From Actinomadura harenae (lineage in GTDB: Bacteria > Actinomycetota > Actinomycetes > Streptosporangiales > Streptosporangiaceae), in the NCBI RefSeq assembly GCF_003696215.1, contig NZ_RFFG01000003.1, positions 141,024 to 205,023 on the forward strand: a stretch of 64,000 nt of DNA. Direction: 5' to 3'. This document shows positions 28,763 to 64,000 of this stretch, piece after piece (within the stretch, counting starts at the first letter, position 1; every line of letters begins with the position of its first letter). Made by a program: the position numbers and the translations under genes. Under the pieces are notes generated by a model. The model worked only from the letters and a program-made list of their open reading frames with translations. It was not told the origin of the DNA and did not search any database.

Positions 28763-30161
28763 TTTCCGGGAACGCGTCGGGAACAGGATCTGCATGGCGG
28801 GCTGGGCTCTCCCCGAGGTCGTCGTCCCTGTCTCCGGCAGGGCTTGTTGACCACCCTGCCGGAGCTTGCGGTCTCCGGACAGCGCTGTCCAGGAGAAGCT
28901 GGAGCTCGTCGATGCCGAGCGGCTCGTTCGCCGCCTGGAGCAGCAGCTCCTCGATACTCCGCTCACCGTTGCCCTGAGGTAGCTCACCGATCAGTGACGG
29001 CGCGACCTCGCCACCGTGATCCCAGAGATCCGCCTCTTCGGCCATCCAGGAGTCACGACGCCGCTCGCGCTCACGTCGCTTCCGGTCCTCAGCCGATTGA
29101 CCGGGAACCGCCGACTCCGAGGCGGTGGCCCTCGCCGCCGCGCTGCCCTGCGCTTGGGAGGCCGCTGCGTCCACGGTGTTCGGCCCCATCGATCCACGCA
29201 TCCCGATCGGATCCCCGCCCGGAGGCGCGAGGAATGGACTGGAGCCGAAGCCTCCCGATCCCGAAGCCGGACCCCCTGGACCGGCCGGGCCCCCGAACTG
29301 ATTCCCACCAGGCCACCCCCACGTGCCTCCGCCTGGCCCACTCCCAGGCGCAGCGGAGGGCGGCATGGCCGACAGGTCAGTCGGAGGCTTGGAGAAGAAC
29401 GGATCAGAGGGAGACCCGGTGCGTGGATCATCACCAGGCCCCGAGGGCGATGTCCCAGAATGCGATCCACCAGGATGCGAACCCCCGCGGTGTGGCGTGC
29501 CCCCGTGAGAGCCGCCCGGACTCTGTGGGGCGTGGCCCGATGGGCCGCCAGGACCGCCCCCGGGAAGCGAACGATGAGGCCCCGAGCCACCGCCTGTTCC
29601 GCCGCCCGGCCCGGACGGTCCAGAGCCGGGGCCTGGCTCTGACACATAGCGTTCGTCCCCCAGGGAGGGGAGATCGTTGGTGACCTTGTCCGGCATCCCC
29701 GCCCAAGCGCTGACGATGTGGTGTGTCACCGTGAGCATCAGGGCCTGTGCTGCGGCGTCTGCCATCGGCTTGGAAGTCGCCGGAATCGGATCGGCGGGCC
29801 ACTGCACAGTCTTGTACTGGGGAAGCACCGCGCTGTATTGCTGCAGCGCCGAGCTCGCGCGATTCGCCGAAGCCGTCATGTTGGAGACCGCCCGGGCCAT
29901 GCGCTTCAGAGAATCGCGCGCTCCGTCCGCAGCGCCACTGTCCCAAGCCGAACCTTCGATCAGCCAGACGGCATGGCCGAGGCTCTCCTCCAGCACCTTG
30001 AGATGCTCTCCGGCCACTCGGTAGGCCGCCGCGGCATCGCTGATCGCCCCGGGATCGGTCTGCTCGAGCAGCCGCTTGACCGTCGCTGCGTCGTAGCCTG
30101 CGGCATTGCCGGAAGGCTGGCCGCCGGCCTTGAGGGAATAGGTCTTCCGCGTGCTGCTCAC
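28620..30161 (-). CDS. PPE/EspB-like type VII substrate, Gly/Pro-rich
   Basis: Encodes 513 residues from GTG after AGGAG. Residues about 25-165 are helical with EGSAWDSGAADGARDSL, a WxG-like turn. About 170-340 is a low-complexity Gly/Pro/Ser linker with GGSHGGTPHRGGSHPGGSHS repeats. The C-terminal part has SAEDRKRRERERRRDSW, then MAEEADLWDHGGEVAPSLIG, a block recurrent at the end of actinomycete PPE-like proteins. An acidic leucine-rich tail (DLGDLSDDLDDLLDGLLDAD) overlaps the mycosin start in another frame. Likely the major secreted substrate of the cluster. Confidence 0.8.
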   Translation of the reverse strand: MSSTRKTYSLKAGGQPSGNAAGYDAATVKRLLEQTDPGAISDAAAAYRVAGEHLKVLEESLGHAVWLIEGSAWDSGAADGARDSLKRMARAVSNMTASANRASSALQQYSAVLPQYKTVQWPADPIPATSKPMADAAAQALMLTVTHHIVSAWAGMPDKVTNDLPSLGDERYVSEPGPGSGPSGPGGGTGGGSGPHRSLPGGGPGGPSGHAPQSPGGSHGGTPHRGGSHPGGSHSGTSPSGPGDDPRTGSPSDPFFSKPPTDLSAMPPSAAPGSGPGGGTWGWPGGNQFGGPAGPGGPASGSGGFGSSPFLAPPGGDPIGMRGSMGPNTVDAAASQAQGSAAARATASESAVPGQSAEDRKRRERERRRDSWMAEEADLWDHGGEVAPSLIGELPQGNGERSIEELLLQAANEPLGIDELQLLLDSAVRRPQAPAGWSTSPAGDRDDDLGESPARHADPVPDAFPENEPPPERTEAPGPAEEDLGDLSDDLDDLLDGLLDADEPGERRPGGSG

Positions 30162-44359: not shown

Positions 44360-45115
44360 ATGACCTCCCACGACGACAAGGCCGCACGGCTGCGCGAACT
44401 GCACCGTCCGGGCGACCCGCTGATCCTGCCCAACGTGTGGGACGCCGCGAGCGCGCGGGTCGTCGCGGACGCCGGATACCCGGCGCTCGCCACCGCCAGC
44501 GCCGCCGTGTCCGCGATGCTCGGCTACGACGACCACCAGGGCGCCCCGGCGGACGAGATGTTCGCGGCGGCCGCCCGGGTCGTCCGGGCCGCCGGGGACC
44601 TCCCGGTCACCGTGGACGCCGAGGCCGGGTACGGCCTCCCGCCCGCCGACCTGGTCGCGCGGCTCGCCGCGATCGGCGCGGTCGGCTGCAACCTGGAGGA
44701 CACCGACCTCGCCGCGGGAGGCGGGCTCGCCGACGCGTCCGCGCAGGCCGAGTACCTGGCGTCCGTCCGGGAGGCGGCCCGTGCGAACGGCACCGACCTG
44801 GTGATCAACGCCCGCGTGGACGTGTTCGCCGGCAAGCCCGAGGCGACCCCCGAGCTGATCGACGCGGCGCTCGACCGGGGACACCGCTACCTGGAGGCCG
44901 GGGCCGACGCGGTCTACCCGATCCTCCTGACCGACGAGAACGCGATCGCGACGCTCACCAAGGAGCTGCCGGGGCCGGTCAACGTCCTGTGCCTGCCCGG
45001 GACGACGGTCTCCCGCCTCGCCGAACTCGGCGTCGCGCGGATCTCCTGGGGCCCGCAGCCGCACCGCCTCGCCATGGCCGCGCTCCAGGACCATGTCACC
45101 GGCCTGCGTCCCTGA
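44360..45115 (+). CDS. isocitrate lyase / PEP mutase family protein
   Basis: Encodes 251 residues. It starts with the family pattern LHRPGDPLILPNVWDAASAR, then TASAAVSAMLGYDD, VTVDAEAGYG (metal ligands Asp-Glu), VGCNLEDTDLA and VINARVDVFA. This is a TIM-barrel C-C or P-C lyase of the oxaloacetate-hydrolase / 2-methylisocitrate-lyase-like group. The catalytic loop KKCGH-type motif of true isocitrate lyases is not seen, so the reaction is open. ATG start after GAGGAGTCGG. Confidence 0.88.
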   Translation: MTSHDDKAARLRELHRPGDPLILPNVWDAASARVVADAGYPALATASAAVSAMLGYDDHQGAPADEMFAAAARVVRAAGDLPVTVDAEAGYGLPPADLVARLAAIGAVGCNLEDTDLAAGGGLADASAQAEYLASVREAARANGTDLVINARVDVFAGKPEATPELIDAALDRGHRYLEAGADAVYPILLTDENAIATLTKELPGPVNVLCLPGTTVSRLAELGVARISWGPQPHRLAMAALQDHVTGLRP

Positions 45116-45161: not shown

Positions 45162-45641
45162 CTAGGACCGGACGGTCAGCCAGAGGCCCGTCGCGGAGGC
45201 GTCGCGGTGGAACCTGAGGTGCCAGCAGCCCGCGCTCGGGAAGCGGTACACCAGCGTCCACTCGTCGCCGGGACGGTCGTAGGCGATCCCGCCCGGTGAA
45301 GGTCCGGACACCGCCGGGAGGTCGTCCACCCCGGGCCCGCGCGCGCTGAGCCGCAGGCCGCCGTGCCCGGTCACGCGCAGCGTGAGGCGGACGTCGCGGC
45401 CCGCCTTGAAGGGGACCTGGTCGGCGAGGGCCCAGAGGGTCGCGTTCCGGCCCGACCCCTCGACCTCGGGACGGCCATGCCAGGCGCCGACCGCCGACCC
45501 GGGTTTGCAGCCGCGATGCGAGTCGACGGTCACGACCCCGATCGGCTTGATCATCGAGCTCGCGGCCCCGTGCGCGCATCCGCCGAGCACGGCGGCCGAG
45601 CACGCCAGTCCCGCGCCCGCCGCGACGACGCCGCTCCTCAT
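45162..45641 (-). CDS. putative lipoprotein, unknown function
   Basis: Encodes 159 residues. The lipobox VLGGC has its Cys near residue 22. The mature part is a beta-rich domain with two further Cys (HRGCKPGS, SAGCWHLRF); the final block FPSAGCWHLRFHRD resembles carbohydrate- or Ig-like surface proteins. I do not recognise a named family. The Met before RSGVVAAG is the start that gives a proper signal. Adjacent to, but not in the operon of, the hydrazine-type cluster. Confidence 0.65.
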   Translation of the reverse strand: MRSGVVAAGAGLACSAAVLGGCAHGAASSMIKPIGVVTVDSHRGCKPGSAVGAWHGRPEVEGSGRNATLWALADQVPFKAGRDVRLTLRVTGHGGLRLSARGPGVDDLPAVSGPSPGGIAYDRPGDEWTLVYRFPSAGCWHLRFHRDASATGLWLTVRS

Positions 45642-45765
45642 CACGTCTCGCCCCCGCTCGACGCTCCCGACCCTTCTCCTCACTGTCCGCCGCCGGCGCG
45701 CGTCCGTCCACCCTCGCGCCGACCCGGTCTATCCACCGGGCCACACCAGGCCGCCCCCACGGTGA

Positions 45766-45797
45766 CCGGCGCCCCCAGGGCGGGCTGGGGGCGCCGG
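45766..45797 (-). terminator. hairpin terminator of the leftward biosynthetic operon
   Basis: A perfect 13-bp stem (45766-45778 with 45785-45797) with a 6-nt loop lies 12 bp after the stop of the last gene of the leftward operon and marks one boundary of the cluster. Confidence 0.8.
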
Positions 45798-45808
45798 AGC
45801 CCGAGGGG

Positions 45809-46162
45809 CTAGGAGGGGAGTTCCTCGATGACCGAGACGCCCTGGGAGGCGTGGGGGCCGTAGCGTTCCCATTCCTCGCGGAGGCGGACGCGGCCGTCGG
45901 GCAGGAGCTCCGGGGTGGAGCGGACGCGGCCGCTGACCACGGTCGCGTCCGCGAGGACCTGGCAGTAGGCGAGGTCCAGGCTGTCGTCGTCGGAGCGGCG
46001 GCCGACCAGGTAGCCGCGGACGACCTGGCCGCCGTCGAAGTCGGCCCAGACGGTGTCGCCGTCCTGGTGGTAGCGGCCGACGGGGACGCCCCCGGCGGAC
46101 GCGGTCTCGGCGGCGGACGAGCGGAACCGCCGTCCCTCGTAGTCGATGGGCACGCCGCTCAC
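45809..46162 (-). CDS. avidin-like small protein (often labelled N-acetylglutamate synthase)
   Basis: Encodes 117 residues. The GTG overlaps the stop of the N-monooxygenase (GTGA). Beta-rich blocks are IDYEGRRFRSSAAETASAGG, GRYHQDGDTVWADFDGGQVV, RGYLVGRRSDDDSLDLAYC, RVRSTPELLPDGRVRLREEW and SQGVSVIEE. The same order occurs in a widespread family of small proteins annotated as N-acetylglutamate synthase without biochemical support. An avidin-like barrel is my reading. Being the last gene of the hydrazine-type operon, it might bind the product or an intermediate; that is speculation. Confidence 0.8.
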   Translation of the reverse strand: MSGVPIDYEGRRFRSSAAETASAGGVPVGRYHQDGDTVWADFDGGQVVRGYLVGRRSDDDSLDLAYCQVLADATVVSGRVRSTPELLPDGRVRLREEWERYGPHASQGVSVIEELPS

Positions 46163-47427
46163 CCCCACACGACGCTGGGCGCGGCGTCGCGGACGGTGTA
46201 GACGTCCCGCTCGAACAGCGAGTTGATGATCGTCGCGGCGCGGACCGGGAGCAGGGTCAGGTTCGCGTCCGCGACGCCGTGCGTGTACCGGGCCCGGTTC
46301 TGCACGAAGATCTTGTTGCGGTCGGAGCCCTTCCAGCGCAGCGAGTAGTCCGAGTCGACGATCATCTCGCCGGTGTCGTCGTGGTCGATGAGCTCGGTCA
46401 GGGACGGCGCGAGCGGCGGCGGTGTGGCCGTGCGCCCGGTGGCGAGGACGACGTACCGGGCGGGCACCTTCTCGTGGCCGATCGGGGACGTCGCCGACAG
46501 GACGAACCCGTCGCCGTCGCGGTCGGCGGACGTGACGTCCCGGCCGGGCCGCATGGTGAGCGGGTACCGGTCCAGGCGCAGCATCCCGTCGTAGTTGGCC
46601 TGGTAGATGGACTGGAGGGCGCCGGGCGTGATCGCGTCGCCGGTGAGGGTCTGGCCCTCGATGAGCCGCCGCCGGGTCTCCCGCGTGACCTGCTGGAGGA
46701 ACTCGACGTAGGCGGGACGGTAGAAGTCGTTGGCGGGCGGCGAGTCGTCCATGGGCTGGAACCAGGGCCGCCGGCCGAGCCAGGTGACGTCGGTGAAGCC
46801 GTGGCCGAGCAGCTCCAGGACGCATTCGGCGCCGGTCTGGCCGCCGCCGATGACCGAGACGGGCGCCTCGCGGTCCATGTCGGGGAGGCGGCCGGTGAGC
46901 TCCTCGGGGACGAAGGCGTCGTCGCCGACGATCCCGGACAGGCCCGGCGGGACGTACGGGACGCTGCCCAGGCCGAGGACGAGGTGGTCGGAGCGGGCGA
47001 TCGTCCGTCCGCCGCTCTCGTACGAGAACCCGACCCCCTCCTCGAAGCCGATCTCGTCCACCGAGACGCCGTACTCGATCCCCTCGATCTGCTCGCTCGC
47101 CCACGCCAGGTAGCGCTGGTACTCGCGGCGCGGGATGACGTTGAACTGGGCGTTGATGAGCGCGTAGATGCGTCCGGACGAGACGAGGTAGTTGACGAAC
47201 GACAGCCGGTGGGTGGGGTCGACGAGCGAGACCAGGTCCTTGAGCCAGGAGGTCTGCATGCGGACGCCGGACAGCAGCAGCCGCGGGTGCCAGGTGGAGA
47301 CCGGGCGCCGCTCCAGCAGGACGAGCCGGTGCGGCGCGACGGCCTCGAACAGCGCGGCCAGGCTCAGGTTCGCCGGGCCGGCGCCGACGCCGACGGTGTG
47401 GTGGTGGGGGATGTCGATCTCGGACAT
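46159..47427 (-). CDS. flavin N-monooxygenase, lysine/ornithine type (SidA/IucD/Spb38-like)
   Basis: Encodes 422 residues. It hydroxylates a side-chain amine (Lys N6 or Orn N5) with FAD, NADPH and O2. The FAD motif is GVGAGPANLSLA (13-24), the substrate/FAD block MQTSWLKDLVSLVDPT, NADPH motif VIGGGQTGAE (192-201), and the late VVLATGRTATPP motif closes the fold. Length matches the family. The ATG follows AGGAGG. In s56-p1 and triacsin pathways such an enzyme makes N6-hydroxylysine for hydrazine formation; the neighbouring cupin and MetRS-like genes make that role more likely here than siderophore synthesis, for which no NRPS or IucA/C gene is present. Confidence 0.93.
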   Translation of the reverse strand: MSEIDIPHHHTVGVGAGPANLSLAALFEAVAPHRLVLLERRPVSTWHPRLLLSGVRMQTSWLKDLVSLVDPTHRLSFVNYLVSSGRIYALINAQFNVIPRREYQRYLAWASEQIEGIEYGVSVDEIGFEEGVGFSYESGGRTIARSDHLVLGLGSVPYVPPGLSGIVGDDAFVPEELTGRLPDMDREAPVSVIGGGQTGAECVLELLGHGFTDVTWLGRRPWFQPMDDSPPANDFYRPAYVEFLQQVTRETRRRLIEGQTLTGDAITPGALQSIYQANYDGMLRLDRYPLTMRPGRDVTSADRDGDGFVLSATSPIGHEKVPARYVVLATGRTATPPPLAPSLTELIDHDDTGEMIVDSDYSLRWKGSDRNKIFVQNRARYTHGVADANLTLLPVRAATIINSLFERDVYTVRDAAPSVVWG

Positions 47428-47447
47428 GGGCGATGCCTCCTGAAGGG

Positions 47448-48524
47448 TCACGCGGGGGTGCGGAGCCGCAGAAGCTCTTCGGCGGCGGTACGGGACGCGG
47501 CGAGGGCGGTCTTCGCCGCGCCGCCGCTGCCGCCCGTGAAGGTCGACAGCCGCGGGGACGCGCCGGAGACCGGCCGGAGCCGCAGGCCGGGGTCGGGGTG
47601 GTAGCAGTCGGCGGCGACGACCGTCCGGACGGCCGGGCCGAGCCGCAGGCCGGGGAAGGTGACGCGGGCCAGCGCGGACGCGGCGTGCGCGAGCGCGGGC
47701 TCGGGCCAGCGGTCGTCGGGGTCGACGTCGTGGCGGTCGCTGGGCACGCCGAGCAGCAGGCCCTTGGCGTGGGGGCGTCCGTAGAGGCTGGTCGTCTCGT
47801 CCACGAACACGCGCGACGGGGGGTTCTCCGCGGCGTGCACCGTGTACTGGACGCGTTTGGTGCGCAGCCCGTCGCAGGGCAGGCCGAGCAGGGTGAGCAG
47901 GCCCGGCGTCCACGGCCCGGCGGCGAGGACGACCAGGTCGAAGGTGGTGGCGGCCATGGTCCCGGACGCGGTCCCGGCCGCGGCCCCGGCCGTGGTTCTG
48001 GACGTGCCGTGGCGCAGGGTGAGCGCGCCGTCCGGCTCCTCGGTGAGGCCGGTGACGGGCGCGGTCGTGCGGCGTCCGCCGATGCGCAGGAGGTCCGCGA
48101 CGATCTCGCGGCGGAGCGCGCCCGGCGCCACGAACCCGGCGCGCCGTTCGACGACCGCGGGCGGGCGGTCGGGGAAGCCCGGCGCGTCCGCGAGGGAGGC
48201 CGACCCGGGCAGCGCCGCGCAGATCGCGGCCAGGTCGGACGGCAGCGGCGGCGGCCCGGCCTGGATGTACACCGAGCCGGTCTCCCGGTAGGCGGCCCAG
48301 CCGCGCAGCAGGCGGCTGCCGTACAACTCGGCGAGCGACGCGGTCGCCTCGGCGCGCAGCGCGGCGTCGGGCTCGAAGCCGCGGACGATCCCGCCGGACG
48401 CGGCGGTCGCGTCGGCGGGTTCGGGCGGGCCCGCGAGCTCGACCTCGGCGGTCCGGTCGGCGAGCCGCAGCCGCCAGGCGAGGAGCGCGCCCGCCAGGCC
48501 CGCGCCGACCACGCAGATCCTCAT
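47448..48524 (-). CDS. DAO-family FAD amino-acid oxidase (Spb39-like)
   Basis: Encodes 358 residues. The N-terminal GxGxxG is in CVVGAGLAGALLAWRL. The DAO (glycine/sarcosine-oxidase-type) body follows with VVLAAGPWTP, SLYGRPHAKGLLLGVPS and a C-terminal GxSG-like stretch (STFTGGSGGAAKT). It oxidises a secondary amine or C-N bond with O2. By analogy to Spb39 it would cleave N6-(carboxymethylamino)lysine to release hydrazinoacetate. The ATG overlaps the stop of the MetRS-like gene (ATGA). A low-complexity Ala/Thr loop (TAGAAAGTASGTMAA) interrupts the middle. Substrate assignment is inference from context. Confidence 0.85.
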   Translation of the reverse strand: MRICVVGAGLAGALLAWRLRLADRTAEVELAGPPEPADATAASGGIVRGFEPDAALRAEATASLAELYGSRLLRGWAAYRETGSVYIQAGPPPLPSDLAAICAALPGSASLADAPGFPDRPPAVVERRAGFVAPGALRREIVADLLRIGGRRTTAPVTGLTEEPDGALTLRHGTSRTTAGAAAGTASGTMAATTFDLVVLAAGPWTPGLLTLLGLPCDGLRTKRVQYTVHAAENPPSRVFVDETTSLYGRPHAKGLLLGVPSDRHDVDPDDRWPEPALAHAASALARVTFPGLRLGPAVRTVVAADCYHPDPGLRLRPVSGASPRLSTFTGGSGGAAKTALAASRTAAEELLRLRTPA

Positions 48525-49828
48525 GAGGCGTCCCCGGACGGCTCCGCCGTGATCAGGGCGAGGAGGTCGCGCGCCCGCGGGTCGTCCCGCATCGGCAGGA
48601 GCAGGCGCGCGGCGAGCGCCGGGTCGAACCCGGACGGCGCGAGCGCGCGGCGGGCGCGCGTCAGGTCGGCCTCGGCGGACGGGACGCCCGTCTTGAACGC
48701 GTCGACCGTGAAGTCGCTCTCGTACCGGTCGGGACGGTCCTGCGCGAGGAACAGCCGGACGTCGCCCGCGTCCTGCTCGCCGAGGATGTCCAGCGCCCAG
48801 ACGGCATGGTTCCGGCTGGTCGAGAACTTCAGGCCGTCCAGGCGGTAGAACTCGTTGACCGCGAGCCCGCGCAGGACGCCCGGCCTCACCCCGGCCGCCG
48901 CGAACACGGCCGGGATCAGCACGGCGTAGTAGAACGAGTTGTCGACGCCGTGGAAGTGCCACAGCTCGTCCACGCCGTTCCACACGGCGACGCAGTCGGC
49001 GAGCGTGCGGACGGACGGGTCCAGGGCGCGCGCGATCTTGTAGAGGTAGCCGAACGCCATCTCGACCCAGACGTCCAGGCGCAGACCGTGCAAGGGGCCG
49101 TTCGCGGGGCCGTCGAGGTCGACGCCCCAGTCGGTCGGGTAGGCGACGGGGACGGCGGGCAGGCCGTCCGGGAGCATCCGTCGGACGAGGTCGACCACGC
49201 GCGGGTGCATCTCGGCCCCGGCCCACGTGCGGGTCAGCTGGTCGCGGAGGTCTTCGAGGCGCAGCACGGGGACGCGCGCGGTGAACTCCTCCGGGACGGC
49301 GTCGCAGCAGGTCGAACGGGCTTCGCGGAGCGTCGCGGCGGTGTTGTAGGCCATGCACGCCTCGCATCCGCCGCCCGCCGCGCCCGCCCCGCACGTCCCG
49401 CAGAGACCGGCGACGTAGCCGTGGTGCATCGTCCGGCCGCAGTCCGGGCAGCGGTGGAGGACGGTGTCCTCTCCGCAGTCGAACAGCTCCCCGACGAGCC
49501 GCCGCATCGCGTCGCGGTAGTCGGCGTCCTGGAGAGGGTCGAGGAAGACGTCGTACTCGATCCGGGCCTGCGCGAACGCCGCCCGGACCTGGTCCGAATA
49601 GTCGCGCACGGCCTCGTCCACCGGACGGCCCAGCGCCTCGGCCTTGGCCAGGACGTAGTTCTGGTGGCTGTCCAGCCCGGACATCGTCAGGACGTCCGCG
49701 CCGGACGCGCGCAGCGCCCGCGCCGCGATGTCGCCCGCTACGTACGGCCCGCTCAGGTGCCCGACGTGCAGGGGACCGTTCGGCGTGGGCGGGGGCGTGG
49801 TGAGGACGATCCGCGTCGGCCGGGTCAT
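48521..49828 (-). CDS. methionyl-tRNA-synthetase-like protein, hydrazine synthetase half
   Basis: Encodes 435 residues, about 80 shorter than a bacterial MetRS and without an evident anticodon-binding domain. Class I motifs remain: HVGH (21-24, the HIGH box) within PNGPLHVGHLSGPYVAGD, a zinc knuckle with Cys127/130/143/146 and 155/158, and KFSTS (334-338, the KMSKS box). The sequence drifts from true MetRS (GLDSHQNYV for GTDEHG). In the known hydrazine synthetases Spb40/Tri28/PyrN a domain like this is fused behind a cupin and activates an amino acid (glycine) with ATP. Here it follows the cupin gene with an ATGA overlap, in the same order. The housekeeping role in translation is unlikely. 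Confidence 0.9.
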   Translation of the reverse strand: MTRPTRIVLTTPPPTPNGPLHVGHLSGPYVAGDIAARALRASGADVLTMSGLDSHQNYVLAKAEALGRPVDEAVRDYSDQVRAAFAQARIEYDVFLDPLQDADYRDAMRRLVGELFDCGEDTVLHRCPDCGRTMHHGYVAGLCGTCGAGAAGGGCEACMAYNTAATLREARSTCCDAVPEEFTARVPVLRLEDLRDQLTRTWAGAEMHPRVVDLVRRMLPDGLPAVPVAYPTDWGVDLDGPANGPLHGLRLDVWVEMAFGYLYKIARALDPSVRTLADCVAVWNGVDELWHFHGVDNSFYYAVLIPAVFAAAGVRPGVLRGLAVNEFYRLDGLKFSTSRNHAVWALDILGEQDAGDVRLFLAQDRPDRYESDFTVDAFKTGVPSAEADLTRARRALAPSGFDPALAARLLLPMRDDPRARDLLALITAEPSGDAS

Positions 49829-50208
49829 TCGCCGGCCTCCTCGGGAGCGGCCTGCCCGGGCGGGGCGGCCTCCTCGGGCATCCAGTAGATGCTCAGCAGC
49901 ACCAGCGGCTCGCTGTCCGAGCGGTTGTGGATCACGTGCGGCTCCCGGCTCGGCAGCAGGACGGCGGCGCCCTGCCCGGCCTCCGTCCGCTCGCCGGACC
50001 CGGGCGCCTCGTAGTCGGCGCTGCCGGACGCCACCACCGAGAGCTCCACCTCGGGGTGCTGGTCGCGCTCGCTGGACCCGCCCGGCGGGATCACGCACCA
50101 CATGGCGTCGAAGGGCAGCTCGCGGTCGGCCGCGTACTGCGTCCACCGGCCGATGCGGATTCCGTATTCCTCGGTCAACCGGGCCGAGGAATATTGCAAC
50201 TTCTCCAT
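49825..50208 (-). CDS. zinc-cupin, N-N bond forming half of hydrazine synthetase
   Basis: Encodes 127 residues forming one cupin barrel. Candidate metal ligands are His51, Glu53/Glu55 (QHPEVELS) and His91/His94 (REPHVIHN). Cupins of this type are the N-terminal domain of Spb40-like enzymes and catalyse the rearrangement that joins the hydroxylated amine nitrogen to the amino group of the second amino acid. It is the first gene of the leftward operon; the stop overlaps the next start. The context decides the call; alone it would be a generic cupin. Confidence 0.85.
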   Translation of the reverse strand: MEKLQYSSARLTEEYGIRIGRWTQYAADRELPFDAMWCVIPPGGSSERDQHPEVELSVVASGSADYEAPGSGERTEAGQGAAVLLPSREPHVIHNRSDSEPLVLLSIYWMPEEAAPPGQAAPEEAGE

Positions 50209-50512
50209 GCGATCTCCCGTTGAACGTCTTCCGAATCGAGGCGGCCGCCACGGAAGGGATTGTGACCCGGATAAGCCGTTTTCCCGGTGGCAGGAAGATG
50301 ACAGGGGCCCCGCCGCGGCGGGCCTCGGGGATTCCCGCCCGAGCTGAACTGCCGCCATTCGCTTTCCGTGATGCGGACATCGCGAACCGCGACGAAATGA
50401 AACATTGACGGTCTCGATCGCGCCGGGGCACCATGCGGCGCAGTGCCCGGCGGGGCTGTGGCCGAGTCGCCGTGGACGCGTCGTTGATGACCGAGTCGAA
50501 GGGGACCCTGGA
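50209..50512. promoter_or_regulatory. divergent promoter region of the biosynthetic cluster
   Basis: These 304 bp separate the two operons and must hold both promoters. The left part (50215-50410) is clearly less GC-rich than the coding DNA around it. I see no perfect palindrome. The leftward cupin start has GGGAGAT before it. A TTG-initiated frame from 50405 runs into the ATP-grasp gene but is not needed. Confidence 0.6.
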
Positions 50513-51928
50513 ATGGATGTCCGTCCGCATCTGGCGCTGATCGCCACCGGCATGCAGGCGTGGCGCGAGTACCTCGTCGAGTCGATCGCGCGGGAGTACC
50601 GGATCCACCTGTTCGCCAAGTCCCGACCGTCCTGGGAGCTGGAGTACGTGGACGGCGTCACCGTGGTGAACACGCTGGAGCCCGACCTCGCGATCGCCGC
50701 CGCCCGCGCCGTCCACGACACCGATCCGTTCGACGGTGTCCTCTGCTGGGACGAGGCGCGGATCTGGCCCGCCGCCTGCGTCGCCGAGGCGCTCGGGCTG
50801 CCCGGCGTGTCCCCGGACGTCGTCGAGCGCTGCCGCGACAAGCACCTGTCGCGCACCGCGCTCGACGCCGCCGGCGTCCCGCAGCCCGCGTCCGTCGCGG
50901 TCGCGTCGCTGGAGGAGGCCGCGCGGGAGGCCGCCCGGATCGGCTACCCCGTCGTGGTGAAGCCGCGCGCGCTCGCCGCGTCCGTCGCGGTGATCGTGGT
51001 CGAGTCGGCGGACCTGCTCGCGGACGCCTACGAGCGGGTGCGCGGCACCACGCTGCCCGAGGTCGAGGAGTACGAGTACGGCGTCCTCGTCGAGGAGTGC
51101 CTGCGCGGCGAGGAGATCAGCATCGACTCGGCCGTGTTCGGCGGGAAGGTCGTCCCGCTGTACCTGGCGCACAAGCGGAAGGGCTACGAGCCGTTCTGCG
51201 AGGAGATCGGGCACGTCCTGCTCGCGGACGACCCGCTGCTGAGCGACCCCGCGCTGATCAAGGTGCTGGAGGACACGCACGCCGCGCTCGGCTTCCACAC
51301 CGGCATGACCCACACCGAGGTGTTCCTCACCGAGACCGGCCCCCGGGTCGTCGAACTGAACGGCCGGCTCGGCGGCGACTTCATCCCCTACCTGGGCGGA
51401 CGCGTCACCGGCATCGACGCCGGGCTCGCCGCCGCGGCCGTCGCCGTCGGCCGGGGGCCCGCGGTCGAACGCACCCGGACCGGGGCGGCCGCCGTCGAGT
51501 TCTTCTACCCGGAGGTCGCGACGGTGTTCGGCGCGCTCCGCGTGGACGAGGCGCTCCTGCACCCGGCCACCGACAAGGTCGTCCCGATCGCGCAGCCCGG
51601 TGAGCTGGTCGAACGCGCCGAGGACGGGTACATGTGGGCGCGCTACGCCGCCGCCCTGGCGATCGCGGACACCGAGGACGAGTGCCGTGCCGCGTTGGAC
51701 GCCGCCGCCAAGGCGATCACGCTGGAGCCCGCTCCGCCCGGCACCGCGTCCGTCCCGGCGGGGCCCGCGATGTCGGGCGCGCCGTCCGAGCCGACACCCA
51801 TGGCGTCCTGGCGCCGCGCCCCGGACGCGGGCGGACAGGCCGGCCCGGACGCGGGCGGACAGGCCGGTTCGGGCGGCGCCGCAGGGCGGGCCGGTTCGGA
51901 CGGCGGCGGCGCCGGGAGCGCGGGGTGA
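50513..51928 (+). CDS. ATP-grasp carboxylate-amine ligase
   Basis: Encodes 471 residues. The ATP-grasp core covers about 105-320: PVVVKPRALAAS (Lys150 for ATP), EYGVLVEECLRGEEISID, HTGMTHTEVFLTETGPRVVE and ELNGRLGGDFIPYLGG with the Mg ligands Glu281/Asn283 and Arg285. It should form an amide from an acyl phosphate and an amine, as in L-amino-acid ligases or carnosine-synthase-like enzymes. The last 60 residues are low-complexity Ala/Gly/Pro (DAGGQAGPDAGGQAGSGG). It starts the rightward operon of the hydrazine-type cluster, so it may join hydrazinoacetate or a relative to an amino acid. Confidence 0.9.
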   Translation: MDVRPHLALIATGMQAWREYLVESIAREYRIHLFAKSRPSWELEYVDGVTVVNTLEPDLAIAAARAVHDTDPFDGVLCWDEARIWPAACVAEALGLPGVSPDVVERCRDKHLSRTALDAAGVPQPASVAVASLEEAAREAARIGYPVVVKPRALAASVAVIVVESADLLADAYERVRGTTLPEVEEYEYGVLVEECLRGEEISIDSAVFGGKVVPLYLAHKRKGYEPFCEEIGHVLLADDPLLSDPALIKVLEDTHAALGFHTGMTHTEVFLTETGPRVVELNGRLGGDFIPYLGGRVTGIDAGLAAAAVAVGRGPAVERTRTGAAAVEFFYPEVATVFGALRVDEALLHPATDKVVPIAQPGELVERAEDGYMWARYAAALAIADTEDECRAALDAAAKAITLEPAPPGTASVPAGPAMSGAPSEPTPMASWRRAPDAGGQAGPDAGGQAGSGGAAGRAGSDGGGAGSAG

Positions 51929-53259
51929 GCGAGGGCGGGGCACGGCCGCCGGGGGTGTGGGAGACCTGGCGGGAGGCGCCGGTCCCGGTCCGGGCGGTCA
52001 TCGCCGGGCTGCTCGTCAACCGGCTCGGCACGTTCGTGCAGGTCTTCCTCGTCCTGTACCTGACGCACCGGGGCTTCTCGGCGACGCAGGCCGGGATCGG
52101 GCTCGGCGTGTACGGGGCCGGGACGGTGCTCGGGCTGCTCGTCGGCGGCGGCCTCACCGACCGGATCGGGAGCCGCCTGACGATCGTCCTGTCCATGGCC
52201 GGGTCGGCGGTGCTGACGCTCGGCGTGCTGTACGCGCCGCAGTACTGGACGATCCTCGTCGCGCTGGCCCTGCTCGGCGCGGTCGCCCAGGTGTACCGGC
52301 CCGCCTCGGCGAACCTGCTCGCCGAGATGGTCCCGGACGAGCGGCAGGTCATGGTGTTCGCGATGCTGCGGCTCGCGCAGAACGTCGGCGCGACCGCCGC
52401 GCCGCTGTTCGGGTCGCTGCTGCTCGCGGCGTCCTACTCGCTGCTGTTCTGGGGCGAGGCCGTCGCGGCGCTGGTCTACGCGGTGATCGCCTACATGACG
52501 CTGCCGGACGGCCGCTCGTCCGCCGCCTCGGAGGGCGGCGCGGCGGACGGCGCGGAGGAGCCGGCGGCCGAGGTGCCGTCCGGCGGTTACCTCGCCGTGC
52601 TCGGGGACGTCCGCTACCTGCTGTTCCTGCTCGCCTTCCTGCTGAACTCGCTCATCTACGTGCAGTACCTCGCCGTCCTGCCGCTCGCCGTGAAGGCGGC
52701 CGGGCATCCGACCGTCGTGTACGGCTCGCTCGTCGCGCTGAACGGGTTCATCGTCATCGCGTGCGAGCTGCCCCTGACGAAGAAGACGCAGAGCCTGCCC
52801 GCCCGCGCCGTCGGCGTCGCCGGGCTCGCGCTGCTCGCGGGCGGCCTCGCCCTGTACTGGGTGCCGCTCGGCATCGCCGCGCTGGTCCTGGCCACGGTCG
52901 TGTGGTCGATGGGCGAGATCGTCGGCGGCCCGACCATGTTCGCCTACCCGGCCAAGGCCGCCCCGGACGGCCTGCGCGGCCGCTACCTGGGGTCGGCCCA
53001 CGCCATGTTCGGCCTGGGCTCGGCGCTCGGGCCGGTGCTCGGCGTGGAGCTCTGGCACGCGGTCGGACGGCCCGTCTGGCTGTGGTGCGGAGCGATCGGC
53101 CTCGTCGCCGTGCTCGCCGCCCGCGCCGGAATGGTCGAAAAATCAACAGTGTCCGCCCCGGCCGAGAACAAACCTTCACCAAGCAATTCAAGAAATGAAA
53201 ATATCACGGTTACGCATACGGGCGGTGACGCCCCGGTCGCGGCAGAGGACAATGCATAG
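51925..53259 (+). CDS. MFS exporter of the cluster
   Basis: Encodes 444 residues with 12 membrane helices. It starts at the GTG overlapping the ATP-grasp stop (GTGA). The motif-A-like loop GGLTDRIGSRLTIVLSM is present, as is RPASANLLAEMVPDERQ. The last 40 residues (KSTVSAPAENKPSPSN and following) are hydrophilic and use A/T-rich codons quite unlike the rest, suggesting late addition or relaxed constraint. It likely exports the product of the ATP-grasp ligase and confers self-protection. Confidence 0.9.
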   Translation: MSEGGARPPGVWETWREAPVPVRAVIAGLLVNRLGTFVQVFLVLYLTHRGFSATQAGIGLGVYGAGTVLGLLVGGGLTDRIGSRLTIVLSMAGSAVLTLGVLYAPQYWTILVALALLGAVAQVYRPASANLLAEMVPDERQVMVFAMLRLAQNVGATAAPLFGSLLLAASYSLLFWGEAVAALVYAVIAYMTLPDGRSSAASEGGAADGAEEPAAEVPSGGYLAVLGDVRYLLFLLAFLLNSLIYVQYLAVLPLAVKAAGHPTVVYGSLVALNGFIVIACELPLTKKTQSLPARAVGVAGLALLAGGLALYWVPLGIAALVLATVVWSMGEIVGGPTMFAYPAKAAPDGLRGRYLGSAHAMFGLGSALGPVLGVELWHAVGRPVWLWCGAIGLVAVLAARAGMVEKSTVSAPAENKPSPSNSRNENITVTHTGGDAPVAAEDNA

Positions 53260-53263
53260 AGAA

Positions 53264-53956
53264 ATGAGCGTCCGCAGCCAAAGCGGACGGAAATTGTGTC
53301 TTATGGAGGGCATGGCAACCCCACCGCACCGCACGGCCGAGGCGCCCACCGGCGCCGAGGCCGGGACGCCCGGCTCCGGCGTCCTCCCCGACTGCCGGGT
53401 CGAGTACTTCGCCGCCCGGCCGACCGGACCGCCCGACGGCGCCCGCACGCGCCGTGACCTGGCCCTGCTGGACGACGGCATCCGGGTCCGGGTCCTCTAT
53501 CCGCACTCCGTCCGCACCGACCCCGCCTTCCTCGGCTACGCGAGCATGCTCAGCGAGGCCGGGGGAGAGATCCGCACCGTCGACCGGCTGCCCGCGCCGG
53601 TCGCCGTCCTCGACCGCTCCGTGGCACTGCTCCCGGTGGGCCCGCCGGGGAGCGAACCCGTCGAGATCACCGCCGCCCCCGTCGTCGACCAGCTCCTCTG
53701 GACCCTCGCCTTCACCTGGGACCACGGCTGGCGCTGCCCCGACGCGGGCGAACCCGAGGAGCTGCGCACCGCGATCCTCGGCATGCTCGCCAACGGCGAC
53801 AAGGACGAGACGGTCGCGCGGCGGCTCGGGATGTCCGTCCGCACCTGCCGCCGCCACGTCGCGTCCATCATGGCCGACCTCAACGCGGCGAGCCGCTTCC
53901 AGGCGGGGCTGCTCGCCGCCCGGGGCGGACTCCTCGGCCCGCCGCCGGAACCCTGA
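53264..53956 (+). CDS. LuxR-type HTH regulator
   Basis: Encodes 230 residues from the ATG 4 bp past the exporter stop; ATGs at 53303 and 53312 are alternatives. The C-terminal LuxR helix-turn-helix is at about 175-220 (DETVARRLGMSVRTCRRHVA, ADLNAASRFQAGLLA). The front part (VEYFAARPTG, RVRVLYPHSVRTDPAFLGYA) is the effector-type domain found in TrmB-/phospholipase-D-like regulators of actinomycetes. No receiver domain. Most likely the pathway-specific regulator of the divergent operons. Confidence 0.85.
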   Translation: MSVRSQSGRKLCLMEGMATPPHRTAEAPTGAEAGTPGSGVLPDCRVEYFAARPTGPPDGARTRRDLALLDDGIRVRVLYPHSVRTDPAFLGYASMLSEAGGEIRTVDRLPAPVAVLDRSVALLPVGPPGSEPVEITAAPVVDQLLWTLAFTWDHGWRCPDAGEPEELRTAILGMLANGDKDETVARRLGMSVRTCRRHVASIMADLNAASRFQAGLLAARGGLLGPPPEP

Positions 53957-54153
53957 CCGTCCACGGGGAGCACCGGCGCCACCGGTGACCCCGGCTGACC
54001 CCGCGCTCACACCGCTCCACCCCGGACGGACGGGACCGCCTCCGTCCTCGTGAACCCCCGCCCGCGAAGGTCCCGCCCGATTCGTCCGCACCCCGCCGGC
54101 GGTGGCCGCCTCCGTTGCCTCGTGGCCGCCGCTCCCCCGCTCCACCGACAGGG

Positions 54154-54185
54154 GCGCCCGCCGGAACCTCGGTTCCGGCGGGCGC
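54154..54185 (+). terminator. hairpin terminator
   Basis: A perfect 15-bp stem (54154-54168 with 54171-54185) with a minimal loop, followed by TTTCG, about 200 bp past the LuxR gene. It closes the rightward operon. Confidence 0.75.
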
Positions 54186-54254
54186 TTTCGTCCTTCCCGG
54201 AACGTCCCGTATCGGTACGATCTGCGGGGCGGATTTCCCGAGACTGGAGGCGGA

Positions 54255-55850
54255 GTGCCGGACACGACGGCCGCGCTGCCGGGGGACCCGGGCACGGTGG
54301 GCCCCTACCGGCTGGAACGGCGACTCGGCACCGGCGGCCAGGGAACGGTCCACGTCGCGCGGGGTCCCGGCGGGCAGCGGGTGGCGATCAAACTGCTGCA
54401 CCCGCACCTGGTCACCGACGAGCGGGCGCGCGGCCGGTTCCTCGGCGAGGTCGAGATCGCCAAGCGCGTCGCGCCGTTCTGCACCGCGCCGGTGCTCGAC
54501 AGCGGCATCGACGGCGACCGTCCCTACATCGTCAGCGAGTTCGTGGACGGCCCGTCCCTGCACGCGTCGGTCCGGGCGCGCGGCCCGCGCTCGGGGGCCG
54601 CGCTGCACCGCCTCGCCGTCAACACCGCGTCCGCGCTCGCCGCGATCCACGAGGCGGGGGTCGTGCACCGCGACTTCAAGCCCGGCAACGTGCTGCTCGG
54701 CCCGGACGGCCCGGTCGTCATTGACTTCGGCGTCGCCCGCGCCCTGGACCTCAGCCAGTCCCTCACCACCAGCCAGGCCGTCGGCAGCCCCGCCTACATG
54801 GCCCCCGAGCAGATCGCGAACAAGGAGATCGGCCCGGCCGCCGACCTGTTCGCCTGGGCCGCCACCCTGCTCTACGCCGCCACCGGGCGGCGCGCGTTCC
54901 CCGGCGACTCCATCCCGGCCGTCATGCACGCCATCCTCCACGACGAACCCGACCTCCCGGACCTGGACCCGCAGCTCAGCGACCTCGTCCGCGCCTGCCT
55001 CGCCAAGGACCCCGCCGACCGTCCGGGAGCCGATGCCGTCCTGGCGTCCCTCCGCGGCCTGTCCCGCAGCGCGTCCGCACCGGCCCTGGCCCCCGTGCTG
55101 GACGAGTCGCCGATCACCGCGTCGGACGAGTCGTCGGTGACCGTGCAGGACGAGCCGTCCGCGCCCGGCCGGACCGCCGCGGACGCGCCGGTCCAGGAGA
55201 CCGCGGCGGACACGCCCTCCCAGCGGACCGCCGACGCCTCAAGCGCCGAGACCGCCCTGGACGCGAAGCGGCCGAAGCGTTCTCGACGTCGTGCCGTCCT
55301 GCTGGTCGGTGCGGTCGCCGCCCTGGTCGCCGTGACGTCGGGCGCGGCCTACATGGCCGGGACGGCGGGGGACTCGGGAGGCCGCCACCACGCCACGTCC
55401 GGGCAGGCGGGGGCCGGTGCGGTGGGGACCGGGCCGCTCACGAGCGGGACGGCGTCCACGCCCACGACGCCGGGCACGCCGAAGAAGACGCCGTCGGGGG
55501 CCTCGTCCGCGTCCCATGCCCCGGTGTCCTCGCCCGGTTCCCCGGATGGTCGTCCGTCCCAGACGCCGAGAAAGACCGCGCAGCCCACCAAGAGCAGCGG
55601 CAGTGGCGGCGGTGGTGGTGGCGGTTCCAAGCCCAAGGGCGGAACGAAGACGCTGGGAACCGTGAACTCGAACGACATGAACCGCTACTGCAACGCGAAG
55701 GGCATGGCCTACGCGACGCAGCAGGGCGCCTCTTACTACTGCACCATCCCGGGAGCGACCCCGGTCACCTGGGGCGACGTCTGCAAATGGCGGTTCCCGG
55801 GGCATTCGCCGATCTTCGCCGACGGCACGACCTGCAAGACCACGTCCTGA
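54255..55850 (+). CDS. receptor-type Ser/Thr protein kinase (PknB-like)
   Basis: Encodes 531 residues. The kinase domain covers about 15-265: glycine loop RLGTGGQGTVH, VAIKLL (ATP-binding Lys), HRDFKPGN (catalytic Asp), DFGVAR and MAPEQI. Residues 270-345 are a Ser/Thr/Ala-rich juxtamembrane linker. A single membrane helix lies near 350-370 (AVLLVGAVAALVAVTSGA). The extracellular part is a Thr/Pro/Ser stalk, poly-Gly, and a small domain with four Cys (NRYCNAKG, YYCTIPGA, DVCKWRF, TTCKTTS) that probably forms two disulfides and may sense a ligand. GTG start after GGAGGCGGA. Confidence 0.93.
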   Translation: MPDTTAALPGDPGTVGPYRLERRLGTGGQGTVHVARGPGGQRVAIKLLHPHLVTDERARGRFLGEVEIAKRVAPFCTAPVLDSGIDGDRPYIVSEFVDGPSLHASVRARGPRSGAALHRLAVNTASALAAIHEAGVVHRDFKPGNVLLGPDGPVVIDFGVARALDLSQSLTTSQAVGSPAYMAPEQIANKEIGPAADLFAWAATLLYAATGRRAFPGDSIPAVMHAILHDEPDLPDLDPQLSDLVRACLAKDPADRPGADAVLASLRGLSRSASAPALAPVLDESPITASDESSVTVQDEPSAPGRTAADAPVQETAADTPSQRTADASSAETALDAKRPKRSRRRAVLLVGAVAALVAVTSGAAYMAGTAGDSGGRHHATSGQAGAGAVGTGPLTSGTASTPTTPGTPKKTPSGASSASHAPVSSPGSPDGRPSQTPRKTAQPTKSSGSGGGGGGGSKPKGGTKTLGTVNSNDMNRYCNAKGMAYATQQGASYYCTIPGATPVTWGDVCKWRFPGHSPIFADGTTCKTTS

Positions 55851-62144: not shown

Positions 62145-64000
62145 TCAGTGCCGCGGGGCCTTCCACCAGGGGCTCGTCACGCGCAGGTCCCGCTCGACGT
62201 TGGTGACGCAGTGGATGTCGCCGCCCGCGGTGCCGATGTGGTGGGCGTAGTCCCAGTCCTCGATCCAGCGGACGTGGACGCCGACCTTCCCCAGCGCCCG
62301 CTCGGTGGCCTGCTGGAAGAGATCCGTTCCGTCCTTCCGCGGACCGTGCTGGGCGGGCGCGAGGTAGCCGCGCGCCCCGGTTCCGGTGCCGACGCCGTTG
62401 GCGGCGTCCGGCAGGTAGGTGACCGTGAGGTCGTTACGCGGGTAGCCGTCGGGCAGGGCGAGCTTGGTGAACAGCGCCGGGACGCGGACGATGTCCTTCT
62501 CGGTGATCCCCGCCTTCTCGCGGAGCTGCAGCAGGGCCTTGTCGACGCCCTGGCCCGCGATGCGCGTGCCGTCCACCAGCGACGGTTCGCGCAGCGCCTC
62601 GGACACCGTCATGTTCGGGTGGTCGGTCTTCGACGCGGCGACGCCCTCGACGAGCCGCCGCCCTCCGCCGCCGCTCTTCGCGAGGTCCTTGAGGATGTCC
62701 ATGCCCAGGCGCGGATCGGCGACGACCATGGCCCAGCCCCGGCCGGTGCGCGCGGGGACGAAGTGCATGAACTCGTCGATGTGCCCGACGCCGAGCCACG
62801 TGGTGTCCACGGAGATCGGGTCCTGGTAGCCCTGGGCGGCGAGCATCCTGGTGAACGTCGGGTCGGGGGTGAACTTCCCCTCGCCGCCGTAGACGATCCG
62901 TCCGGTGGGGTACTCGGGGGTCGGCGGGATCGTCCCCATGTTGCCGGTCGAACCGGCCGACCCGTAGTAGAGGTTGTCGTCCGGAGTGTCGACACGCGTC
63001 CCGTCGAACTGCTGGACCCCGGCCACCCCCGGGCCGCGCAGCATCGTGAACACCGGACGGGACGCGTCGCGCAGCGGACGGTCGCGTGAGGGGAAGTTCG
63101 GCGTGACCGCGGGCGACCTGAGCCTCACCGCGATGCGGTGCTCGGCCCCGCCCGGCCCCGGCATCGAGGCGTAGGCGGTCTTGTACATGTCGCCCATCCA
63201 CCGGTCCCCGCCGGACGGCGACTCGACGAACCGGCTCCGCAGGCCGTCCGCGTCGAGGGCGCGCCGCAGGTCACGCCGGTATTCGGCCGACCCCACCATG
63301 GACCTGGAGGGAGCCTTCAGCCCCTCCAGGGTCTCGGGCGCCTTCGGGTTCGCGACGACCGCCCGCTTCAGCGGCATGAGGTCGTTCTCGAAGAGCACCG
63401 GCGCGACGCGCAGCCGCACGCGGTCGGTCCGCGTGGCGCCCCGGTCGGCGACGGTCAGCGTGAGGTCGGTGAACCCCGACCAGACGGCGGGGTCGCGGAC
63501 GATGTCGCGCGCCTCGATCGCGAGCCGCACGCCCCGGCGCAGCTCGTCCGCGTGCAGGACGCCGTCCGCGCCGAGCGCGACGAACCTCCCCTTGCGCTCG
63601 ACGAAGACGCGGACCTTGTCACGGGAACGCGCGTCCGGGAGCAGCGTCCCCTTCGCCGAGCCGGACACGCCGCGGATCGCCGGGATCTCCAGCCGCGCGA
63701 GGTCGGCGAGGTCGGCCGCGCCGTTCACCACGTCGTCGGACGCGTCGTTGCACCCGGCGAGCGCGGCGTCGCTGAGCCGCGCGCCGTCCTTGGCCGAGGA
63801 CGAGCAGCGGGACCGGTCGTCGTCCAGGTTCGGCAGCATGATGGCGCCGCGGGCGGCGGTCCAGGAGCCCCGCCCCTTGTCGTCGGCGGGTGTCAGGCGG
63901 CCGTCGCGGTCGGTGTCGGCGCGCAGCAGGACCCGCGACGGCGTCCCGGTCGGCGCGGGCACGGTCGGCGCGGGCACGGCCAGCGCGGGCGCCGCCGTCC
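62145..64000 (-). CDS. secreted peptidyl-arginine deiminase (PAD), 5' end outside window
   Basis: At least 617 residues are visible and the frame stays open to the window edge. The first visible residues look like the end of a signal peptide (APALAVPAP). A Ca-binding-type loop RADTDRDGRLTPADD is at the start, then the PAD body. The catalytic residues of vertebrate PADs are recognisable: Asp in SVDTTW, His and Asp in VGHIDEFMHFVPA and Cys in GGDIHCVTN near the C-terminus. It would convert protein arginine to citrulline outside the cell, Ca-dependently. Related secreted PADs are known in actinomycetes and cyanobacteria. Confidence 0.92.
   Translation of the reverse strand, partial: TAAPALAVPAPTVPAPTGTPSRVLLRADTDRDGRLTPADDKGRGSWTAARGAIMLPNLDDDRSRCSSSAKDGARLSDAALAGCNDASDDVVNGAADLADLARLEIPAIRGVSGSAKGTLLPDARSRDKVRVFVERKGRFVALGADGVLHADELRRGVRLAIEARDIVRDPAVWSGFTDLTLTVADRGATRTDRVRLRVAPVLFENDLMPLKRAVVANPKAPETLEGLKAPSRSMVGSAEYRRDLRRALDADGLRSRFVESPSGGDRWMGDMYKTAYASMPGPGGAEHRIAVRLRSPAVTPNFPSRDRPLRDASRPVFTMLRGPGVAGVQQFDGTRVDTPDDNLYYGSAGSTGNMGTIPPTPEYPTGRIVYGGEGKFTPDPTFTRMLAAQGYQDPISVDTTWLGVGHIDEFMHFVPARTGRGWAMVVADPRLGMDILKDLAKSGGGGRRLVEGVAASKTDHPNMTVSEALREPSLVDGTRIAGQGVDKALLQLREKAGITEKDIVRVPALFTKLALPDGYPRNDLTVTYLPDAANGVGTGTGARGYLAPAQHGPRKDGTDLFQQATERALGKVGVHVRWIEDWDYAHHIGTAGGDIHCVTNVERDLRVTSPWWKAPRH

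Follow-up and report, generated by a model that had tools for sequence, protein, structure and literature searches.

A compact eight-gene block of Actinomadura harenae with a predicted split hydrazine synthetase and a predicted avidin-fold partner

Results

Organization and conservation of the gene block

The DNA stretch of Actinomadura harenae analysed here (64,000 nucleotides of contig NZ_RFFG01000003.1, positions 141,024 to 205,023; hereafter the window) carries, at positions 45809-53956, a compact block of eight genes arranged as two divergent transcription units, with five genes running leftward from 50208 and three running rightward from 50513. On the minus strand, the leftward unit begins with the genes of a zinc cupin of 127 amino acids (aa) (49825..50208; Cupin_2, 8e-13) and of a 435-aa protein resembling methionyl-tRNA synthetase (MetRS) (48521..49828; tRNA-synt_1g, 4.5e-46), which are assigned as the stand-alone halves of a hydrazine synthetase. 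These are followed by a 358-aa flavin adenine dinucleotide (FAD) oxidase of the DAO family (47448..48524; PF01266, DAO, 7.5e-20), a 422-aa FAD/NADPH-type amine N-monooxygenase (NMO) (46159..47427; PF13434, Lys_Orn_oxgnase, 1.1e-70), and a 114-aa protein of the PF26421 family with a predicted avidin-fold beta barrel (45809..46153; GTG start at 46153, possibly 46168). The leftward genes are closely packed, with 4-base overlaps between cupin and MetRS-like genes and between MetRS-like and DAO genes, and 20 bp between DAO and NMO genes. Across an intergenic region that measures 304 bp in the sequence (50209..50512), the plus strand encodes a 471-aa ATP-grasp ligase similar to L-amino acid ligases (50513..51928; PF13535, ATP-grasp_4, 2.8e-15), a major facilitator superfamily (MFS) transporter predicted to be an exporter (51925..53259; PF07690, MFS_1, 1.1e-45), whose GTG start at 51925 overlaps the ATP-grasp stop and which has a later GTG at 51955, and a LuxR-type regulator with a C-terminal GerE helix-turn-helix (53303..53956; PF00196, 6.4e-07). 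Pfam backs every gene assignment in the block apart from that of the 114-aa protein. A preliminary description of the window had placed NMO, cupin, MetRS-like protein and DAO in one leftward operon with ATP-grasp, exporter and LuxR genes divergent to it; all of these are present with the domains it gave, while the fifth leftward gene (114-aa protein, 45809-46153) had gone unnamed.

A. oligospora (L053) and A. rupiterrae (L054) both carry the same eight genes, which the preliminary description had proposed to look for in related genomes, with order and orientation kept. Their proteins are 84-94% identical to those of the window, the regulator being 91% and 87% identical, respectively. The genes immediately flanking the block differ between these two species. 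On a 3.4-kb contig of A. logoneensis (L055), the cupin, MetRS-like and ATP-grasp genes are visible. The five best homologues of the MetRS-like protein in named genomes, with 81-86% identity, belong to Actinomadura and Spirillospora. The block is patchy within the genus, since only two of the 35 same-genus genomes of the relatives sample, from which its own genome was excluded, encode the MetRS-like protein at more than 80% identity (G033 and G034). The eight genes form a real unit.

A promoter scan detected no sigma-70-like site in 45600-54300, and a plasmid search returned 95 records, every one below 60% identity. A defence system was rejected as a reading, PADLOC giving no match for any of the eight proteins. 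The phosphoenolpyruvate-mutase-like gene at 44360-45115 was kept out of the block because it is widespread in the genus (34 of 40 genomes). In agreement with the earlier statement that no nonribosomal peptide synthetase (NRPS) or polyketide synthase (PKS) is present, a family search covering nine further window proteins, rather than every open reading frame (ORF), revealed no NRPS or PKS domains in these nine.

Reference loci and sampling

Named genomes were scanned with an alignment of MetRS-like relatives, which gave 341 confirmed stretches, and the best 80 of the 341 were kept as the locus set. The MetRS group of the window comprises 41 of these best 80 loci (44-86% identity), and within it 29 cassettes in named genomes carry a DAO of the window's kind. 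Two loci served as points of comparison. The Streptomyces-like locus L187 holds two dehydrogenase-like genes, ATP-grasp, MFS, NMO, DAO and a fused cupin-MetRS with a carrier-like end, as well as NRPS-, adenylase-, carrier-, acetyltransferase- and C45-peptidase-like genes; its ATP-grasp, MFS, NMO and DAO were checked by family search and the other genes were read from sequence. Because its gene order equals azsH-azsT (PMC10445470), L187 was taken as the azaserine-type reference. The window proteins are 35% (NMO), 33% (MetRS), 35% (cupin), 48% (MFS) and 28% (ATP-grasp) identical to those of L187. The second locus, L196, encodes a diaminobutyrate transaminase of the ectB type (TIGR02407; 625 bits against a cut-off of 552) and has the order fused synthetase-DAO-NMO, which fits the apy9-10-11 numbering (PMC11705231); from these two features it was read as actinopyridazinone-like.

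The cupin and MetRS-like proteins as a predicted split hydrazine synthetase

The best PDB match of the cupin was 5j7m (3.5e-23). When a 3-residue numbering offset was allowed, phmmer aligned its residues D49, H51, E55 and H91 with D63, H65, E69 and H103 of RHS1 (PDB 5uqp), which coordinate zinc and whose alanine variants are inactive (PMC8664883). The zinc-cupin motif D/H-x-H-x3-E plus a distal H, with its invariant Glu, is thus present in the window cupin. The MetRS-like protein has counterparts of the HIGH and KMSKS motifs (HVGH at 21 and KFSTS with K334), and solved MetRS match it within residues 1-382 only, i.e., the catalytic part. In a tree of 47 rows built with the careful method, it belonged to a 23-row clade (100/100) apart from the housekeeping MetRS of E. 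coli and of three members of the Actinomadura group. In a second tree, the window clade was sister (96/95) to the fused synthetases of L196 type and not to those of L043, L044 and L129, of which L043 and L044 carry azaserine-type DAOs. On the basis of the cupin residues, MetRS motifs and clade position, the pair was assigned to the hydrazine synthetase family. The prediction that cupin and MetRS-like protein constitute a two-gene synthetase forming an N-N bond is well supported by these sequence features, and synthetase halves may exist as separate proteins (PMC8664883). Neither of the contrary outcomes that the preliminary description had named, namely grouping of the two proteins with unrelated families or a trio of NMO, cupin and MetRS never kept in relatives, was found, since the synthetase groups with hydrazine synthetases and the trio occurs together in relatives.

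The predicted MetRS pocket consists of P14, L52, D53, S54, W254, M257, A258, Y261 and Y302 (E. coli gene numbering). Its W, M, A and Y are common to many family members, while S54 was seen solely in the window protein and its closest relatives. The second amino acid is likely to be small, judging from this pocket sequence. Glycine was not accepted as the established substrate, in view of the differing pocket positions and of a sister clade other than the azaserine-type one. The preliminary description had also listed pyrazomycin with the glycine-joining set, whereas the pyrazomycin synthetase takes glutamate (PMC8664883). The idea that relatives of ~770 aa are AzaE-like with a C-terminal carrier domain was dropped, as none was seen in the four C-termini inspected.

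The N-monooxygenase and its probable substrate

Residue K63 of the NMO (QTSWLKDLV) aligns with the K in the FLKDL motif of MbtG (lysine) and KtzI (ornithine), which we take to anchor the substrate carboxylate, and the corresponding residue is S or A in 6xbb, 7us3 and 5o8p. Cadaverine is presumably the substrate of both 6xbb and 5o8p. Five diamine-type NMOs from other synthetase loci (L096, L099, L104, L107 and L131) have A at the position of K63 and group with 6xbb, 7us3 and 5o8p. The window NMO is therefore predicted to hydroxylate the side-chain amine of an alpha-amino acid, likely lysine. Because K63 is kept, a diamine NMO was rejected as first choice, though among solved structures the protein comes closest to 6xbb and the putrescine enzyme 7us3.

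Phylogenetic analysis with a quick method, in which MbtG was the sole solved lysine enzyme, placed the window NMO in its own 23-row clade, including the Streptomyces monomycini L153 enzyme and excluding the NMOs of the azaserine-DAO loci L043, L044 and L046. This clade shares a half of the tree with NMOs of azaserine-DAO loci and with the diamine enzymes, and not with MbtG and KtzI. The 35% identity of the window NMO with that of L187 compares with a reported 58% between NngK and Spb38 (PMC13274452).

The DAO oxidase

No sequence relative of the DAO was found in the PDB at E<=0.01. In a cross-match test on 32 loci with window-type DAO (threshold E<=1e-8), the azaserine-type DAO of L187 matched none of the 32 and the L196 DAO matched 26, and the window and L187 DAOs gave no match to each other at 1e-3. 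Window-type and azaserine-type DAOs formed separate clades in the DAO tree. The window DAO thus looks like a lineage separate from the azaserine-type enzymes; its predicted role is the oxidation of one of the C-N bonds in the hydrazine. An Apy10-like cut, between C-alpha and N, is weakly favoured by the sequence comparisons. The gene of ~1.1 kb between NMO and synthetase in L043-L046 had been considered a saccharopine dehydrogenase, which was dropped because the azaserine-type DAO matches there.

The predicted avidin-fold protein and the composition of related cassettes

The 114-aa protein is predicted to form an eight-stranded avidin barrel, the compared rows showing only 5-13% identity. It accompanies the window-type DAO in 29/29 cassettes of named genomes, as does the cupin. 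An NMO of at least 45% identity lies inside the fetched locus in 22 cassettes, and the remaining seven, all containing a berberine-bridge-like (BBE) FAD oxidase, have an NMO with 49-51% identity elsewhere in the genome. The BBE gene lies between the DAO and the small gene in 11 of the 29 cassettes (PF01565 and PF08031 shown in L060), and ten have an ATP-grasp in the locus (identity at least 40%); both together occur in none, and neither occurs in eight. From the predicted fold and the co-occurrence, one might guess that the avidin-fold protein serves to bind a reactive N-N intermediate or to hand it on. Among the matches listed in the open-licence literature, outside which most subscription papers fall, no paper dealt with the Actinomadura block or the avidin-fold partner.

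Further arrangements were seen in the locus set. Six Kribbella loci (L073, L076, L078, L079, L080 and L089) have a MetRS-like gene directly followed by an avidin-fold gene, with no NMO, cupin or DAO match within the locus. A. rupiterrae has a second cluster (L048) that combines a different MetRS/cupin/NMO set with a window-type DAO and the small gene, along with genes for ATP-grasp, MFS and a dimethylargininase-like protein. Outside the genus, the nearest relative, S. sporangiiformans, has a gene for O6-methylguanine-DNA methyltransferase behind its cassette (L056:14094-14585; PF01035), and an ORF of equal length occupies this site in L057; the gene hints at an alkylating product with self-protection.

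The ATP-grasp ligase, the transporter and similar modules

The ATP-grasp protein scored above the cut-off for ATP-grasp_4 and reached 25.5 bits for LAL_C2, under the cut-off of 29.4. Its best PDB match was the L-amino acid ligase BL00235 (2.4e-23), and its predicted reaction joins an amino acid with the hydrazine or the hydrazino acid. Elsewhere in the same genome, L051:7342-11365 encodes a HemN-like radical SAM protein followed by paralogues of ATP-grasp (43%) and MFS (52%). Another compact cluster lies on the same contig ~2.6 kb before the window start (L052:7013-16385), with two Haem_oxygenas_2 proteins, two ATP-grasps around an MFS and an unassigned 449-aa protein. The cluster also holds Rieske-like and methyltransferase-like proteins, read from sequence, and recalls the parallel system of PMC2922099. 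Look-alike proteins of ~440-455 aa stand beside ATP-grasp/MFS modules at L052:15036-16385, L086:17764-19089, L082:1663-3027 and L042:3229-6033, with or without hydrazine genes; the two that were searched had no Pfam match.

Two other features of the window, both on the minus strand, are a protein of the protein-arginine deiminase family (62145-63977; PF03068, 2.3e-67), unexpected in an actinobacterium, and a subtilisin-like protease adjoining a proline/glycine-rich protein (27503-30161), which on a sequence reading resembles a mycosin region of type VII secretion.

Discussion

Proposed pathway

Taken together, the sequence comparisons lead us tentatively, and at somewhat less than even confidence, to a pathway in which the split synthetase would link an N-hydroxylated diamino acid with a second, small amino acid, followed by a DAO cut, ATP-grasp coupling and MFS export. 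The NMO would likely hydroxylate the epsilon-amine to give N6-hydroxylysine. The MetRS-like protein would then adenylate the second amino acid, such as alanine or glycine, and esterify the hydroxylamine without tRNA, and the zinc cupin would rearrange the ester into an N-N bond using E55; this mechanism is proposed for the window because it was shown by others for PyrN and RHS1. In what is the weakest step, the DAO may cut beside the alpha carbon of the second amino acid, which would act as nitrogen donor and leave as a keto acid, yielding 6-hydrazinonorleucine, an omega-hydrazino amino acid. The ATP-grasp enzyme would form a hydrazide or dipeptide, the MFS would export it and LuxR would switch the block on, while the avidin-fold protein might, as a guess, attend the reactive N-N intermediate. 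The exported product is predicted to consist of an omega-hydrazino amino acid (or of hydrazinoacetate) to which an amino acid has been ligated. In albofungin-type cassettes, the BBE oxidase, which is absent from the window block, would take the intermediate to free hydrazine.

Several results weigh against this pathway. The approximately unbiased (AU) test did not reject window-type and azaserine-type DAOs as one group (p 0.301), and the DAO rows nearest the window's clade are uncharacterised proteins. The L196 DAO outscores that of L187 on general DAO families (ThiO, 60.8 vs 37.6 bits), so its matches to window-type DAOs may partly reflect superfamily likeness, and the actinopyridazinone-like nature of L196 was deduced from ectB and gene order, not from apy sequences. 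The window NMO is closer to the azaserine-type enzyme of L187 (35%) than to that of L196 (29%), and pocket position 54 is S in the window MetRS vs D in both references. As to the ligation step, the L187 ATP-grasp is just 28% identical to that of the window, and the azaserine authors think that AzsJ, an ATP-grasp, may be dispensable, because some clusters lack an ATP-grasp (PMC10445470).

Alternative explanations

The alternative closest to the preliminary description, which had seen here the s56-p1 and triacsin enzyme set, is that N6-hydroxylysine is joined to glycine and the DAO cuts on the lysine side to release hydrazinoacetate, which the ATP-grasp would convert to an aminoacyl hydrazide like the end part of negamycin. 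The enzyme types are those of Spb38/39/40, the azaserine cluster has ATP-grasp, MFS and LuxR genes too, and the AU result leaves DAO kinship possible; the MFS identity of 48% and the NMO identities given above point the same way. Against this, DAOs and NMOs fall into separate clades and the azaserine-type DAO matches no window-type DAO, T13 and H302 of the azaserine-type synthetase pocket are P and Y in the window, and genes for an adenylase, a carrier protein, an acetyltransferase and a C45 peptidase are absent from the eight, so that we regard hydrazinoacetate release as rather unlikely. What stands of the earlier reading is the MetRS/cupin synthetase with NMO and DAO; an s56-p1/triacsin-type set releasing hydrazinoacetate is not supported, as the DAO is apparently of separate lineage (0/32), the NMO has its own clade and the synthetase is split and lies in the clade of the albofungin enzyme.

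It is a good deal less probable that the hydroxylated amine is a shorter diamino acid (ornithine or diaminobutyrate) or a diamine instead of lysine. The closest solved NMOs (6xbb and the putrescine hydroxylase 7us3), the position of MbtG in the other half of the NMO tree and the use of diaminobutyrate in actinopyridazinone (PMC11705231) speak for it, but K63 and the DDSPPAN motif follow amino-acid rather than diamine enzymes, and no diaminobutyrate-forming gene is among the eight. Least probable, and in our view very unlikely, is that the block ends at the free hydrazino acid, with ATP-grasp and MFS as a portable resistance or export module dispensable for synthesis. Such pairs do lie at two other sites of the genome with no synthetase genes nearby, and the view of the azaserine authors on AzsJ would fit, yet ATP-grasps 43-51% identical to that of the window recur in eight further cassettes outside the genus.

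Beyond the lysine-based pathway proposed above, the cassettes would allow a wider conjecture, which we consider unlikely in its entirety: a distinct N-N branch built on a five-protein module, in which the avidin-fold protein would accompany the reactive species (ester, hydrazine or hydrazone) on its way between the synthetase and the oxidase and lysine would become 6-hydrazinonorleucine, the second amino acid being spent as nitrogen donor, the ATP-grasp version leading to undescribed small hydrazino-dipeptides and the BBE version feeding free hydrazine to aromatic polyketides.

If the proposed pathway is true, eight genes in ~8 kb would be enough for the synthesis and export of a small molecule with a hydrazine group, with neither NRPS nor PKS involved, and heterologous expression would have a compact target in them. 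For the albofungin branch of hydrazine synthetases, the block would be a minimal stand-alone test case in which two downstream options, BBE oxidase or ATP-grasp ligase, can be seen side by side. It would also draw attention to an avidin-fold partner that is present in all 29 window-type-DAO cassettes of named genomes examined and has been assigned no role in the open-licence literature searched.

Comparison with known systems

The albofungin cassette (abf orfDEF plus abf6; afn8/9/18) shares with the window the order cupin-MetRS-DAO, then the avidin-fold gene, and the MetRS, NMO and DAO of S. monomycini (L075 and L153) fall in the window's clades. In L075, asparagine-synthetase-like, oligopeptide-transporter-like and third ORFs were read from sequence; with 621, 501 and 583 aa, they agree in length with abf2, orfL and orfA of the albofungin cluster (PMC9469721). 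The two differ in that a BBE-like oxidase lies between DAO and small gene in albofungin, a place taken by the NMO in the window, and in that the albofungin cassette lies within a type II PKS cluster (PMC9469721); no homologue of the window ATP-grasp or MFS was found within 10 kb on each side of the albofungin-type locus. The albofungin hydrazine has been attributed to orfDEF (cupin, tRNA synthetase and FAD oxidoreductase) plus abf6 (PMC9469721), and Afn14 is able to condense free hydrazine with a polyketide (PMC11705231).

With the azaserine, triacsin and s56-p1 systems (AzsLMN, Tri26-28 and Spb38-40), the block shares the logic of NMO, FAD oxidase and cupin/MetRS. The preliminary description knew of no cluster with exactly this partner set; the set is less unusual than that, as the azaserine cluster has, besides AzsL (monooxygenase), AzsM (FAD oxidoreductase) and AzsN (cupin/MetRS), the ATP-grasp AzsJ, the MFS AzsK and the LuxR regulator AzsR (PMC10445470). 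Compared with this hydrazinoacetate pathway, the window has two genes overlapping by 4 bases instead of a fused cupin-MetRS, an NMO of another clade and a DAO of apparently another lineage, and its eight genes do not include the adenylase, carrier protein, acetyltransferase and peptidase. Actinopyridazinone (Apy9-11) resembles the window in that the window MetRS clade is sister to L196-type synthetases and the L196 DAO matches the window kind. It differs in being built with diaminobutyrate (PMC11705231), as opposed to probably lysine in the window, and L196, the inferred apy-like locus, has a fused synthetase and R at the K63 position of its NMO.

The operon type of MetRS-paralogue, cupin and lysine N6-monooxygenase, together with FAD oxidoreductases and transporters, was already predicted in a 2010 survey, which expected a Met-Lys dipeptide and, in its accessible portion, names no avidin-fold protein (PMC2922099). 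Operon type and split synthetases are thus known, and a portion of the azaserine cluster has a similar set of partners. Within the open-licence literature searched, what is new is this compact block, its predicted avidin-fold partner and the finding that cassettes have either a BBE oxidase or an ATP-grasp ligase but not both.

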